Of a stretch of 8,975 bases of DNA, positions 3,282 through 8,614 are shown piece after piece. Below the pieces are notes generated by a model. That model was not told where the DNA came from and searched no databases. It saw only the letters and a list, made by a program, of their open reading frames with translations. This DNA comes from an uncultured Prevotellaceae bacterium (GTDB taxonomy: Bacteria > Bacteroidota > Bacteroidia > Bacteroidales > Bacteroidaceae), in assembly GCA_937892315.1 (NCBI GenBank), contig CALAVF010000438.1:1-8975 (forward strand). Direction: 5' to 3'. Position 1 is the first letter of the stretch; the number at the start of each line of letters is the position of its first letter. Position numbers and translations under genes: made by a program.

Positions 3282-4556
3282 TTACTTTTTCTTCTTTTCC
3301 AAGTAGGTCTTCAAGGCGTCGAGGTTCTCGTGCTCGGTGATGCCGTATTCTGTCTGGTCGTATTTCCCTTGCACCAGGGTGACAGTTCCGTCCTTAGCCA
3401 GATAGAAGGCATCGAAGCCGAAAAACTTCTTGATGAAGGAGACACGCTTGCGAGGCTCTTGTCCGAGAATGACGGAATAGAACTCCTTTCGGGTGTCGCA
3501 ACCCACTTGCAGGAGGGAACGGATGTCGTAGTAGTCGCCCAGCGCGGTCTGAGCAGTGTCTATCTTGGTTGTGTTGTTGGTCACACACACCAGCACCGTG
3601 TTCTTCTTCCGCTTCTCCTCCTTGTTCTTCTTGGAGAGGAAATTTTTGGAGGTTCCGTCGCTCACCTTCATCTGGTCGAATCCCTCGCCCCACACACCGC
3701 TGGCATCCGTCATGCTGACAAAGGCGTAGGGGTCAATCCGTTTCACCATCCGCAGAATCATGGCTTGGTCACGCCGACGAATCACACTCACAATGACAGG
3801 ACGGTCGGTGTGTGTGTACCATCCTTGCCCGTCCAGCATCGTCACACCGTGGTGGGTGCTGACGATGGCGTCGGCGATGGCATCAGGATTGCGTGAGAAA
3901 ATCATGAACTGAACCGACTGGTGACGACGACGCATCCAGTAGTCGATGGTGGCAGAACAGATGAAGAGCATCACGAAGCCATAAATGATACGGAACCAGT
4001 CGTGGAAGATGAAGTAGCAGGAGGAGATGATGACCACGTCGCAAGCCATGATGACCGAACCCAGCGACATGTTCTTGTACTTGTTCACAATGGCGGCGAT
4101 GATGTCCGTTCCGCCCGTGCTGCCGTTGTTCTCAAAGCACAGAGCCACTCCCGTACCACACAAGATGGCTCCCAAAACACAAGCCATGAAGGACTCCTCG
4201 CCAATCAACTGTGGCAGCATCGTTTTTCCCGCATGAGCAGGGTCGGGCACCTCGATGAGTCGCTGCATCAGCCACAAGACGAAGGTCATGAAGAAAACCG
4301 CATAGATGGTCTTGATGCAGAAACGGATGCCCAACTCCTTGACGGCGACAATGAGCAGGATTGCATTGATAATCACGTAGGTCACCTGCACCTCAACACC
4401 TGTCACATAGTAGATGATGGACGAAATACCCGCCACACCGCCTGTGGTCAAACTGTAGGGCAGCATGAACACCGTCACGCCTATGGCATAAAGGATTACA
4501 CCCACAGAGATGAGGGCATAATCCTTCAGTTCATGTAATACGTAAGATTTGGTCAT
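3282..4556 (-). CDS. YitT-family membrane protein (DUF161 + DUF2179) with an extra C-terminal region
   Basis: The 424-residue protein belongs to the YitT family, whose transport or other role is not settled. Residues 1-205 hold about six hydrophobic segments (roughly 12-34, 40-52, 57-73, 80-100, 122-141 and 165-203). They include the family signatures SLTTGGVAGIS at 35-45 and ENNGSTGGTDI at 142-152. Residues 211-297 form the cytoplasmic DUF2179 domain and end in the characteristic GEGF at 290-293. Most relatives stop near there. Here a lysine-rich linker (309-319) leads into a further soluble region up to 424, which is the odd part of this gene (see findings). The ATG shares one base with the leuS stop codon (TAATG), so translation is probably coupled to leuS and no separate promoter is needed. 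The stop codon is TAA at 3284-3282. Confidence 0.9.
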   Translation of the reverse strand: MTKSYVLHELKDYALISVGVILYAIGVTVFMLPYSLTTGGVAGISSIIYYVTGVEVQVTYVIINAILLIVAVKELGIRFCIKTIYAVFFMTFVLWLMQRLIEVPDPAHAGKTMLPQLIGEESFMACVLGAILCGTGVALCFENNGSTGGTDIIAAIVNKYKNMSLGSVIMACDVVIISSCYFIFHDWFRIIYGFVMLFICSATIDYWMRRRHQSVQFMIFSRNPDAIADAIVSTHHGVTMLDGQGWYTHTDRPVIVSVIRRRDQAMILRMVKRIDPYAFVSMTDASGVWGEGFDQMKVSDGTSKNFLSKKNKEEKRKKNTVLVCVTNNTTKIDTAQTALGDYYDIRSLLQVGCDTRKEFYSVILGQEPRKRVSFIKKFFGFDAFYLAKDGTVTLVQGKYDQTEYGITEHENLDALKTYLEKKKK

Positions 4557-7522
4557 TATTTTTTCAATACGATGTTAATCATCTTACCAGGAACCACAAT
4601 CACCTTTGCCACCGTGAAGCCTTCCATCCACTTGGCTGACTGCGGGTCGGCAAGGGCTGCTTTCTCGGCATCTTCCTTCGACACGTCGGCAGGGAACTCC
4701 AGTGGGAAACGAGCCTTGCCGTTGAAGGCAACCATCATCTTCACAGAGTCTTCCTTCAGGTAATCCTCGTTGAAAGCAGGCCAAGGAGCATCACAAACCG
4801 TGGTGGTGTGACCCAGCAGGTGCCAGAGTTCTTCGGCAAGGTGAGGACAGAACGGAGCCAACAGGATGACCAGCGTCTCCTTCACCTCGCGGCTGGTGCT
4901 CTTCAGTTTGGTGAGTTCGTTCAGACACACCATGAAGGCAGCAATCGTCGTGTTGTAAGAGAACGCCTCGATGTCGGTGGTTTCTTTCTTGATGAGGGTG
5001 TGCAGAGCCTTCAGTTCTTCCTTGGAGGGAGCATTGTCTGTGGAATTGATAGCACCTTCTTCTGTCGTCATAAATTTCCAGAGTTTCTTCAGGAAGCGGT
5101 GGCAACCGTCAATGCCGTTGGTGTCCCAAGGCTTGCTCTGCTCCACAGGACCGAGGAACATCTCGTAGAGACGCAGGGTGTCAGCACCAAACTTCTCCAC
5201 AATCATGTCGGGGTTGACCACGTTGAACATACTCTTCGACATCTTCTCCACAGCCCATCCGCAGATGTACTTGCCCTCGTCGTTGAGGATGAACTCGGCT
5301 GTGTTGTATTCAGGACGCCAAGCCTTGAAAGCCTCCACATCGAGCACGTCGGCACTCACGATGTTCACATCTACATGGATAGGAGTCACGTCATTGAAAG
5401 AAAGTTCTTGGGTGCTTTGCCCCAAGTCTTTCTTTATCTTGTCGAAGGAAACAAACGTGTTCGTGTCCTTGATGCGATACACAAAATTGCTCCTTCCCTG
5501 AATCATGCCCTGATTGATGAGTTTCTGGAAAGGCTCTTCCTTGCAAGACACACCGAGGTCGAAGAGGAACTTGTTCCAGAATCGGCTGTAAATCAAGTGA
5601 CCTGTGGCATGTTCGCTACCACCCACGTAGAGGTCCACATTCTGCCAGTACTCGTCAGCATCCTTGCTCACCAGTGCCTCGTTGTTGTGTGGGTCCATGT
5701 AGCGGAGGTAATAAGCAGAACTGCCCGCAAAACCTGGCATGGTGTAGAGTTCGATGGGGAAAACCGTTTGAGGCTTCGGGCAACGCTCCGAAGAACCCTC
5801 AAACGAGTCTATCTTCGAGTTCTCCACAATCTTTTTGTTCACCTCATCCCAAGCCCACACGGTGGCATTGCCCAGTGGTGGCTCTCCTGTCTCAGTAGGC
5901 AGGAACTTATCCACTTCTGGAAGTTCAATCGGCAGGCACTCTTCTGGAATCATCGTCGGAATGCCATTCTTGTAATAGACAGGGAATGGCTCTCCCCAAT
6001 AACGCTGACGGGAGAAGATGGCATCACGCAGACGGTAGTTCACCTTCACACGACCCAAGCCTGCTTCCTTCACGTATTTCTTCGTCTTGGCGATGGCTTC
6101 CTTCACAGTGCAACCGTTGAGGCTGAAATCGATGTAGGGCTTCACATCCTTGCGAGGTGAGTTCGTCACGATACCTTCCTTGGCATCATAACTCTCCTCA
6201 CTCACGTCAGCACCCTCAATCAGCGGAATAATCGGCAGGTTGAAGTGCTTGGCAAAAGCGTAGTCGCGGCTATCGTGAGCAGGTACAGCCATAATGGCAC
6301 CTGTGCCATAGCCAGCCAACACATATTCTGAAATCCAAATCGGATTCTTCTCGCCTGTGAATGGGTTGATGGCATACGAACCGGAGAACACGCCTGTCAC
6401 CTTGTGGTCAATCATACGCTCTCTCTCCGTGCGACCCTTCACATACTTGATGTATTCCTCCACTGCCGCTTTCTGTTCGGCAGTCGTCACTTTCTCCACC
6501 AGTTCGCTCTCAGGAGCCAACACCATGAAGGTGACACCAAACATCGTGTCGGCACGAGTGGTGAAGATGGTGAAGGAATCATCGCTGTCAGCAATCTTGA
6601 ACTCCACTTCTGCACCTTCACTTCGACCAATCCAGTTCTTCTGAGTCTCTTTGATGGATTCACTCCACTGAATCGTCTCCAGACCGTCCAAGAGTCGCTG
6701 AGCGTATGCACTCACACGGAGGCACCACTGCCTCATCTTCTTCTGCTCCACAGGGAAACCGCCACGCACACTCACGCCGTCCACCACTTCGTCATTTGCC
6801 AGCACAGTGCCCAGTCCTGCACACCAGTTCACCATCGTCTCGCCCATGAAGGCAATGCGGTAGTTCATCAGCACATCACTCTTCTTCTTCTCGCCCCACG
6901 ACTTCCATTCATCAGCCGTAAACGTGAGGTTCTCCGTTTGAGCCACATCGAGGTCTTCCAGTCCCTTTGTTCCATTCTTCTCAAAGTATGCAACCAACTC
7001 TTCAATAGGTCTCGCCTTCCCAGCCGGATGGCTCCCCTCGCCCTTCACGGGAGAGGGGTTGGGGGAGAGGGTCTTCTTACTGAAGAACGAACCAAACATC
7101 TTCTGGAAAGCCCACTGTGTCCACTTGTAATACTCAGGCGAACAAGTCCGCACCTCTCTGTTCCAATCGAAGCAGAAGCCAATCTTGTCCAACTGCTCAC
7201 GATAGCGGTCAATATTCTGGAAAGTAGTCTTCTCAGGGTGCTGCCCCGTCTGAATCGCATACTGTTCAGCAGGCAGTCCGTATGCATCATACCCCATCGG
7301 GTTCAGCACATTATATCCCTGCAAACGCTTGAAACGTGCGTAGATGTCACTGGCGATATATCCAAGCGGATGTCCCACATGCAGACCCGCCCCACTCGGA
7401 TAGGGGAACATGTTCAACACATAAAACTTCGGCTTGCTCTTGTCCTCAGCAACCTGATAGGTCTTCTCCTCCACCCACCGCTGCTGCCATTTCTTCTCGA
7501 TCTCTCTAAAATTGTATTCCAT
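4556..7522 (-). CDS. leuS: Leucyl-tRNA synthetase
   Basis: Class I synthetase that attaches leucine to tRNA-Leu in the cytoplasm, 988 residues. The ATP-binding HIGH motif appears as HVGH at 48-51 and the second signature as KMSKS at 760-764. The editing domain (CP1) is present, with [12 protein letters not shown] at 321-332 and AVPAHDSRD at 412-420; the last Asp is probably the one that positions the substrate amino group. The zinc-module region (about 232-266) has kept only one cysteine, so it probably binds no zinc. The anticodon-binding domain follows, with [12 protein letters not shown] at 889-900. The start is the ATG at 7522, the only one matching the family N-terminus (MEYNF). Residues 151-164 come from an inserted palindromic repeat, which adds to a length above the roughly 940 I recall for Bacteroides. 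It is the first gene of a leuS-yitT operon driven by the promoter at 7551-7582, with a leader of only about 20 nt. Confidence 0.97.
7031..7072 (-). repeat. Palindromic GC-rich repeat inserted in frame in leuS
   Basis: These 42 bp encode [14 protein letters not shown], residues 151-164 of LeuRS. CCCCTC (7034-7039) pairs with GAGGGG (7053-7058), and inside that CCC (7041-7043) pairs with GGG (7049-7051) around a 5-nt loop, with one mismatch between the two stems. A second G-rich run follows at 7061-7071. Peptides reading [11 protein letters not shown] are a familiar translation of a dispersed intergenic repeat in many bacterial genomes (recalled, not searched). The element is exactly 14 codons long with no stop, and it lies between the aligned family segments [10 protein letters not shown] and KARPIEEL. 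Its edges may extend several codons further on each side (about 148-168). Confidence 0.75.
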
Positions 7523-7540: not shown

Positions 7541-7691
7541 AATTTGGGTGCAAAGGTACGACTAAGTGAGCGAAAAACCAAATTTCTTCACTCATTTTCT
7601 ATTTTTTAGTGGTGTTCAGGCGAACAAGTTCGGAGTCTTTGAGGTTTTCCGAACGTGAGTACCTTCGGCGGAGCCAAAGGTGGTGATAAAG
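7541..7691 (+). repeat. Left arm of a long inverted repeat flanking the intergenic core
   Basis: This arm matches the reverse complement of 8438-8614. The outer 102 bp (to about 7642) agree at roughly 85% by eye. The best block is 7608-7643, which matches the complement of 8513-8549 with only one inserted base. The inner part (7649-7691) matches again after a gap. The arm contains the whole leuS promoter. Reading inward it has three potential hairpins: GTTC/GAAC (7614-7625), GTTCGG/CCGAAC (7628-7633 with 7649-7654), and the pair around 7661-7681. It ends close to the leuS start codon, and no clear target-site duplication was seen. Confidence 0.85.
7551..7582 (-). promoter_or_regulatory. Bacteroidetes-type promoter of leuS-yitT
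   Basis: On the minus strand, TTTG (7582-7579) is followed by 20 bp and then TACCTTTG (7558-7551). The ATG is 29 nt beyond the -7 element, so the leader is about 20 nt and leaves no room for a leucine leader peptide or T-box. The promoter lies wholly inside the left repeat arm and mirrors the phosphatase promoter at 8573-8604. Confidence 0.8.
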
Positions 7692-8027
7692 AATGAAACA
7701 TAAAGAATTGAACATCCTTTTTCATCATTTCTTTCACCATTTTTATATGAAACACTCCACACTATTTCGACAGGTTCCACTTTCCATCTTTGATACAGCA
7801 TTAGCATGATTGTTATTTTCACAGCATAAAAATAGGGAGAATGTATTTTGTAACAAACATTTTTTGTAGAAAAGTGTATTTTGCAAGATACAGTTCTGCC
7901 ATGTTATACAATTTTTCACCTTATAAGTAAGTGCTCAATCTGTGATGTCATGATTTTCTGTGGCGGATGTCCTGTTTTTTCTGTGTGTCGTCACCTTTGT
8001 TTTCTTTTGCCGCAGACGTGTTAAATA

Positions 8028-8155
8028 TTTGGCTTGATGATAATTTTCAATTTGGCTTGATTATACAAAATATTTTGGCTTGAATACACTGAATTGTAAT
8101 CAAGCCAAATTGAAAGTTGTATTCAAGCCAAATCATTTCTTATAATCAGGCTAAA
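8028..8155. repeat. Symmetric array of six TTTGGCTTGA sites, 23-bp period, three direct and three inverted
   Basis: Direct copies of TTTGGCTTGA begin at 8028, 8051 and 8074. Inverted copies TCAAGCCAAA begin at 8100 and 8123, with a degenerate one (TCAGGCTAAA) at 8146. All neighbouring copies within each half are exactly 23 bp apart, and the whole is a dyad centred at 8091.5. The longest matches are 8045-8063 with 8097-8115 (19 of 19) and 8074-8088 with 8118-8132 (15 of 15). The outer pair 8028-8043 with 8140-8155 matches at 13 of 16. The function is unknown. The form suits a cruciform, a structured RNA or a set of phased protein-binding sites. Confidence 0.85.
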
Positions 8156-8170
8156 ATGTTTAGAGATTGT

Positions 8171-8189
8171 GGAAGGGAGGGAGGGAAGG
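8171..8189 (+). other. G-rich run with quadruplex potential
   Basis: The plus strand reads GG, GGG, GGG, GGG, GG separated by one or two A residues. This permits a two-layer G-quadruplex and perhaps a three-layer one with a bulge. It lies 15 bp beyond the six-site array inside a longer purine-rich stretch (to about 8225). No function can be assigned. Confidence 0.35.
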
Positions 8190-8240
8190 CTGTGGAAGAA
8201 GGATGGTGAAGGATGCGGAAGAGATAAGCATGATAACCAC

Positions 8241-8260
8241 CAAAGCCCTGAAGGGTTTTG
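8241..8260. other. Short hairpin in the intergenic core
   Basis: CAAAGCCC (8241-8248) pairs with GGGTTTTG (8253-8260) across a TGAA loop: eight pairs, one of them G-T. No T-run follows on either strand, so it is not a typical intrinsic terminator. Confidence 0.4.
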
Positions 8261-8437
8261 ATGGAGCAAACTCTGTCTGATTGTGGGTGTAAAATTGGGG
8301 TGAGACGATCAAACAAAAATCAACGTCGCACGCCGATAGTTGTAGGAAAGCCAGTAACTTCGTTTCAACGAGTCCGACAAGAAGGAACGGGCTATCAATT
8401 CTTTGGCCACCTTCAACTCTTCAATTTTTATTTTTCA

Positions 8438-8614
8438 CTTTATTTCCGTACCGTTGGCTTCGCCCAAGGTACTCACGTTCGGTTATCGTCCACGCTTTCG
8501 CAGAAAGAATAACTCAAAGACTCCGAACTCTGTTCGCCTGAACACCACTGAGAGAGAAAAATGAGCCAGAAATTTGTTTTTTCTCTCACTTAATCGTACC
8601 TTTGCCCCCAAATT
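8438..8614 (-). repeat. Right arm of the long inverted repeat
   Basis: Reverse-complement partner of 7541-7691. It is 26 bp longer, mainly because 8483-8512 (30 nt) replaces a 5-nt loop in the left arm. The replacement is itself palindromic: TTAT/ATAA ends enclose CTTTC/GAAAG at 8495-8507. The arm keeps GTTCGG/CCGAAC (8477-8482 with 8523-8528) and GTTCGCCTGAAC (8532-8543), and it contains the entire phosphatase promoter. It stops 9 bp before the phosphatase ATG. Confidence 0.85.
8573..8604 (+). promoter_or_regulatory. Bacteroidetes-type promoter of the alkaline phosphatase gene
   Basis: TTTG (8573-8576), 20 bp, then TACCTTTG (8597-8604). The spacing and flanks are the same as in the leuS promoter in the opposite arm. 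The ATG follows 19 nt after the -7 element, so the leader is only about 12-15 nt. Confidence 0.8.

Follow-up and report, generated by a model that had tools for sequence, protein, structure and literature searches.

A mirrored array of 23-bp units in a Bacteroidales genome belongs to a dispersed array family and is a candidate docking platform for HU-HIG proteins

Iteron- and parS-type arrays of plasmids and chromosomes consist of phased repeats, one set of which lies at the promoter of the binding protein itself. The expansion of HU-HIG proteins in Bacteroidetes was reportedly discussed in a 2017 survey of the HU superfamily, and no published DNA target for HU-HIG proteins was found in the open-licence literature. 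The closest known system to the arrays described here is the BrickBuilt minisatellites of Porphyromonas gingivalis, which consist of 23-nt tandem units without spacers, accompanied by a leader and a tail, with 19 intergenic copies in one strain and a unit number that varies among strains (PMC4596501). The BrickBuilt units are direct repeats within an IS5-like MITE with 12-bp inverted ends, and according to the accessible portion of that paper they were found in P. gingivalis and P. gulae only (PMC4596501). BrickBuilt_12 of P. gingivalis adjoins leuS, and BrickBuilt_14 is listed in Table 1 between PGN_0871 (minus strand) and PGN_0872 (plus strand, encoding a DNA-binding protein, PF00216) (PMC4596501). 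DNA/RNA-binding neighbours are counted there among the functional clusters, and the same portion of the paper proposes no role at the repeats for the PGN_0872 protein (PMC4596501). The arrays of the present study are likewise made of 23-bp tandem units, intergenic, present in multiple copies, and variable in unit number.

The window, that is, the whole stretch of 8,975 nucleotides that was analyzed, contained the six-site mirrored array described in an earlier note, with three direct and three inverted sites arranged symmetrically about 8091.5. The direct sites at 8028..8037, 8051..8060, and 8074..8083 on the plus strand were exact copies of TTTGGCTTGA. On the minus strand, the inverted sites at 8100..8109 and 8123..8132 were exact inverted copies of TTTGGCTTGA, and the sixth site at 8146..8155, TCAGGCTAAA, had two mismatches to inverted TTTGGCTTGA. 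The steps, which had been given as exactly 23 bp, were indeed 23 and 23 bp inside each arm, whereas the step across the centre at 8091.5 was 26 bp. The centre itself spanned 36 bp (8074..8109, without assigned strand) and consisted of 14-bp arms and an 8-bp spacer. All six sites were found in the real gap, and at most three of six in 300 Markov shuffles of it, in which the geometry was fixed and up to two mismatches per site were allowed.

As had been noted before, the array was located in non-coding DNA; it occupied part of the gap that separates leuS (4556-7522, minus strand) from a type I phosphodiesterase-family gene (plus strand, from 8624). By its leuS relatives, the window groups with ruminant-gut drafts of Bacteroidaceae or Prevotellaceae, the best leuS segments showing 88 and 84% identity with L003 and L034, respectively. 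The start of the phosphodiesterase gene showed 93% DNA identity with draft G317, in which the DNA upstream of this gene differed from the window and contained no array; thus, the position of the window array was not common to G317, and this locus could not serve as a clean empty site. The left flank of the array (7936..8027) was common to L172, an array of a relative that lies upstream of an HU-HIG gene pair. The right flank (8156..8409) matched, in reversed orientation, L194 and L196, both contig ends of the relative G316, the alignment spanning 8062-8409 of the window with 76% identity. A second, larger inverted repeat, with pieces within 7541-7704 and 8427-8614 and 80-91% complementarity between the arm pieces, flanked the window array at a distance and faced both genes; pieces of it recurred in L003 beside leuS, in L005, and, by eye, in L237, and it seems to be a promoter-side interspersed repeat. 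A viral, phage, or plasmid origin of the array was rejected, as the two-site pattern had no exact match in viral contigs and the region 7980-8200 had no blastn match in plasmids or phages.

The two-site pattern detected another array in the L034 genome, again spaced 23/26/23. The 36-bp centre was present in four of the 301 genomes sampled from the family, with 10 forward matches in G023, 8 in G071, and 1 each in G002 and G105, and the reversed control pattern matched one of the 301 genomes, G185. In the nearest genus, a unit pair was matched in 9 of 45 genomes. We measured 51 arrays, from G002, G023, G071, G105, G312, G313, G316, G317, and the window, with G148 left out; this set included orthologous loci and probable assembly duplicates, and a chance cluster, L187:11217, was dropped. 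The steps were 26 bp or a multiple of 23 bp in all 51 arrays, and a mirrored 26-bp centre was present in 49 of them; because the arrays outside the window were found by patterns asking for one 23-bp direct pair or the mirrored centre, that step is ascertained, whereas the other steps, as well as the inversion and the 26-bp centre in G312, G313, G316, and G317, were not demanded by the search patterns. The exact form with three direct and three inverted sites was found in 16 of the 51 arrays (the window, 7/8 in G317, 5/8 in G312, and 3/9 in G316). Expansion of one arm, to up to 9 units, was frequent in G023, G071, and G105. When 25 arrays were stacked without gaps, the unit consisted of approximately 17 conserved bp (ATTTGGCTTGAWTAYAA) and approximately 6 freer bp, and there was little conservation outside the arrays. 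Contigs L190, L194, and L196 (G313 and G316) ended approximately 100-200 bp from arrays; therefore, short-read drafts may undercount them. The six sites of the window are one copy of a dispersed array family. Where the earlier note had allowed for relatives lacking conserved spacing or symmetry and for the absence of other copies, the part of this comparison that was run on sequence found spacing and symmetry kept in relatives, and other copies, so that its proposal was not refuted.

In four genomes, G023, G071, G312, and G317, an array immediately preceded two HU-HIG (PF18291) genes arranged in tandem. At these loci (L138, L154, L172, and L186) the array ended approximately 100-340 bp upstream of the pair, and the gene on the far side differed. 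Five HU-HIG proteins from three of these loci were scanned; all matched PF18291, and three also matched PF00216. The structure model of HU-HIG-1 had an HU-like order of strands and helices, and with a pLDDT of 59, which is of low confidence, it was not used as evidence. By protein similarity to HU-HIG-1, we collected 84 matches (2 to 15 per genome) from ten genomes, namely the nine array-bearing genomes and G001, and tested the 30 matches with loci for periodicity in the 450 bp upstream, using periods of 10 to 40 and 60 shuffles. The best period was 23 in 13 of the 30 genes, and 11 scored above all 60 shuffles; the 13 included L225, which was no better than shuffles, and L221, which had only two copies. 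For homologues at least 55% identical to HU-HIG-1, the best period was 23 in 7/7 cases, 6 of which exceeded all shuffles. Another best period was obtained for 17 of the 30 upstream regions, and a strong 21-bp period (43 of 46) was found at two HU-HIG genes, L222 and L229 (G071:C43 and C61).

A lag-23 score of at least 29 was reached by 12/30 HU-HIG genes versus 7/774 control genes (p 3e-14) and, without the four discovery genes, by 8/26 versus 7/774 (p 2e-9); control genes with an upstream class-A array, the class carrying the window word, had been left out, so that 8/26 is a fairer figure than 12/30, and related HU-HIG genes are not independent draws, so that the p-values are guides only. Five control genes scored at least 30 at lag 23, of which that of L006 was a run of N, and those of L053 (two), L132, and L188 were repeats. 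L053, from Porphyromonas oral taxon 278, carried palindromic units resembling ACCTACNGTNGGT, spaced 23 bp apart, at 4800-4890 and 9000-9085, upstream of leuS and another gene. In the right flank of L132, upstream of 10096, another word, CATGTATTTGTGTTGGCGAAAGC, stood in three tandem 23-bp copies within the flank of an array element. Other Bacteroidaceae drafts also had genes preceded by 22-bp tandem units (L016, upstream of 10139, and L062, upstream of 4373), and these units may represent a sister period.

At E<=1e-40, HU-HIG-1 was present in 6 of the 45 genomes of the nearest genus, and all six were among the 9 array-bearing ones (hypergeometric p 1e-5, uncorrected for kinship). No HU-HIG-1 homologue was found at E<=1e-20 in G316, which has nine arrays, or in G002, which has one, and the match in array-bearing G313 was only 36% identical; these genomes are drafts that may lack HU-HIG genes by incompleteness, and some contigs of G316 end beside arrays. 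The three class-A arrays of G105 had no HU-HIG gene in the retrieved surroundings. HU-HIG-1 was detected in 4 of 301 genomes at the family level (E<=1e-25) and in 1 of 344 at the order level, this being G023 itself (E<=1e-17), and a word-limited search of 5.8 billion proteins yielded 24 at E<=1e-10. The HU-HIG-1 subfamily is narrow.

Diverged HU-HIG genes had other words upstream. The word TTTAGCGTTGGRA, in arms mirrored about a 26-bp centre, was found upstream of the HU-HIG gene at G105:C4, the word TTTAGCATTATTATA upstream of that at G148:C32, and GC-rich 23-bp units upstream of that at G317:C37. If the upstream word marks the target of an HU-HIG protein, the same word should also be dispersed, and this prediction was tested with the G105:C4 word in 12 genomes. 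There were 28 matches in G105, 18 in G317, and 7 looser ones in G148, with none in the other nine genomes and none for the reversed control pattern. The mirrored 26-bp centre was present in 10 of the 12 retrieved loci, and at two G148 loci the units were in one orientation only. None of the five loci of G317 with this word (class B) had an HU-HIG gene within the 9-12 kb retrieved.

The array family with its geometry, dispersal, and variable unit number, its co-location and co-occurrence with HU-HIG genes, and the differing 23-bp words at diverged HU-HIG genes are established here. We propose, with a probability of roughly 0.6, that the two HU-HIG proteins (PF18291, HU/IHF superfamily) of a tandem gene pair, itself preceded by such an array, use the arrays as docking platforms. 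In this model, HU-HIG-1 and HU-HIG-2 would jointly occupy every 23-bp unit. Adjacent bound units, spaced by 2.2 helical turns, would cause each arm to fold, and the two mirrored arms, meeting at the 26-bp centre, would close into one complex. The array at the promoter of the HU-HIG pair itself could provide autoregulation or feedback, and the arrays elsewhere may put intergenic regions under the same protein, tied to the level of the HU-HIG pair. The cooperative protein binding suggested in the earlier note gains indirect support from the strict phasing in 51 arrays and from the link to HU-HIG genes, the binding itself being predicted from sequence.

The dispersal of the arrays could also be explained by a non-autonomous, BrickBuilt-like MITE, in which the 23-bp minisatellite is passive cargo, the transposase acts in trans, and no dedicated binding protein exists. 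Such an element would fit the copy number of up to ten intergenic arrays per genome, the flanks of approximately 100 bp common to several G023 copies, the differing number of inverted sites at orthologous loci (5 in G071, 3 in G002, and 8 in G023), and one locus that has the element in G023 and G071 and lacks it in G269; the accessible portion of the BrickBuilt report presents the P. gingivalis repeats as an element of this kind (PMC4596501). However, neither terminal inverted repeats nor a target duplication could be made out by eye, and positions were mostly stable, with a G071 counterpart, judged by neighbouring genes, for 8 of 10 G023 loci. Moreover, a MITE predicts neither HU-HIG genes with differing upstream 23-bp words nor a mirrored centre kept across words, and we consider this explanation unlikely.

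The left part of the window array (7936-8133) showed 86% identity with L172 and the right part (8023-8195) 88% identity, in reversed orientation, with L173, so that the window array looks like a mosaic, which supports the rearranged array that had been suggested as one cause of its crossed pairing. The matches behind this pairing, 19 bp between the second direct and first inverted sites and 15 bp between the third direct and second inverted sites, can be read from the window units. To compare partners across the family, 23 arrays were used (the 25 stacked arrays minus L190 and L194), and ties were assigned to the lower-numbered inverted unit; with 19-bp units, the best partners were nested as outer-outer in 3 arrays, middle-middle in 5, and inner-inner in 11. 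Nested partners are thus not the rule in the family, so that the crossing, although present in the window, needs no special fold, and it fits unit turnover and recombination.

In G071 (L150 8506-10994, C53), two direct arrays flanked a 173-aa RTasCOG2852-like gene and a UG26 defence-type reverse transcriptase (PADLOC E 4e-161). In G269, where the genus search found no arrays, the 173-aa gene and the reverse transcriptase followed the permease directly. In G105, this cargo was absent, and a single array combined the flank lying left of the first G071 array with that lying right of the second. The difference between G071 and G105 fits recombination between direct arrays, with a presumed direction of change, and the arrays look like recombination points. 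The UG26 reverse transcriptase was rejected as a partner of the arrays; of the 45 genomes, 4 encoded it, including 3 array-bearing ones (p 0.02), and in G269 and G317 there was no array beside it. An attachment site of a site-specific recombinase, with the 14-8-14 centre as the core and the outer units as accessory sites, would accommodate this cargo and the hybrid single array, as well as the 8-bp spacer between 14-bp arms and the orientation of lopsided arrays with the two commonest spacers (ACCAATTT; ACCTTTTT/TCCTTTTT type), whose long arm was always on the same side, these copies being partly orthologous. However, for a third spacer type the long arm of ACAAACGT in L140 and L150 was opposite to that of ACAAATGT in L152, and spacers varied among arrays of one genome. 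In addition, a non-systematic look noticed no recombinase gene beside the arrays, and homologous recombination between repeats can also give a hybrid array. A recombinase site appears improbable.

Sixteen of 39 arrays were in divergent gaps; among background gaps no shorter than 250 bp, 6 of 36 were divergent (Fisher p 0.02). Ten orthologous or duplicate loci were left out of this count, and L190 and L194 had no gene on one side; 6 of the 39 independent arrays were between convergent genes. Secreted products downstream of arrays were not enriched (17/49 versus 134/395 by a crude signal-peptide rule), and a surface-protein regulon was rejected on this basis. No function common to the neighbours was seen by eye. 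The arrays in convergent gaps, together with the lack of secreted enrichment, mean that a simple promoter regulon is not established, and, with no common neighbour function either, structural and regulatory roles are equally open. The excess in divergent gaps would be expected of an operator array for an unrelated transcription factor, but the convergent gaps and the absence of an evident common function among the neighbours speak against it, and the HU-HIG link would have to be a coincidence, which makes such an operator array hard to credit. A structured RNA (a long hairpin, or the alternative folds or pseudoknot raised in the earlier note) is highly improbable, since the strong folding of the window single strands (z -8.3 and -8.0 versus shuffles) would be shown by any such palindrome, the linkers matched no better within an array (5.6/14) than between arrays (6.3/14; 23 arrays, permutation p 0.96), arm lengths in G023, G071, and G105 were very uneven (up to 9 versus 2 units), and Rfam yielded 11 matches at E<=1 (9 to microRNA families), every one below its gathering score.

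Extended beyond the window word, the proposed docking by HU-HIG proteins leads to a broader and more tentative reading, which we hold at somewhat under even odds. The HU-HIG paralogues of Bacteroidales may be sequence-specific nucleoid proteins, each pair with a private 23-bp word, forming co-diversified sets of one geometry; the arrays would have spread as docking platforms, and BrickBuilt of Porphyromonas would be another branch. If this is true, the 23-nt minisatellites of Bacteroidales would gain a function as well as an origin, and there would be a case of HU-superfamily proteins working through phased, specific sites. Bacteroidales drafts contain many HU-HIG-like genes, and a visible upstream word turns the question of their target into a simple binding assay.

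In comparison with BrickBuilt, the arrays described here were mirrored in 49 of 51 cases, whereas the accessible portion of the BrickBuilt report contains no description of units mirrored around a 26-bp centre (PMC4596501). Leader- and tail-like flanks were present here in only part of the copies, and ends resembling the 12-bp IS5-like ends of BrickBuilt were not made out by eye, the array boundaries being seen by alignment only. The arrays also differ from a CRISPR array in that the units adjoin at 23 bp with only approximately 6 freer bp and have no unique spacers. They resemble iteron- and parS-type arrays in their phased repeats and in having one set upstream of the genes for the candidate protein, but here the candidate belongs to the HU superfamily, the arms are mirrored, and the arrays are scattered along the chromosome. 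What is new in this system is thus the mirrored geometry together with the link to HU-HIG genes.
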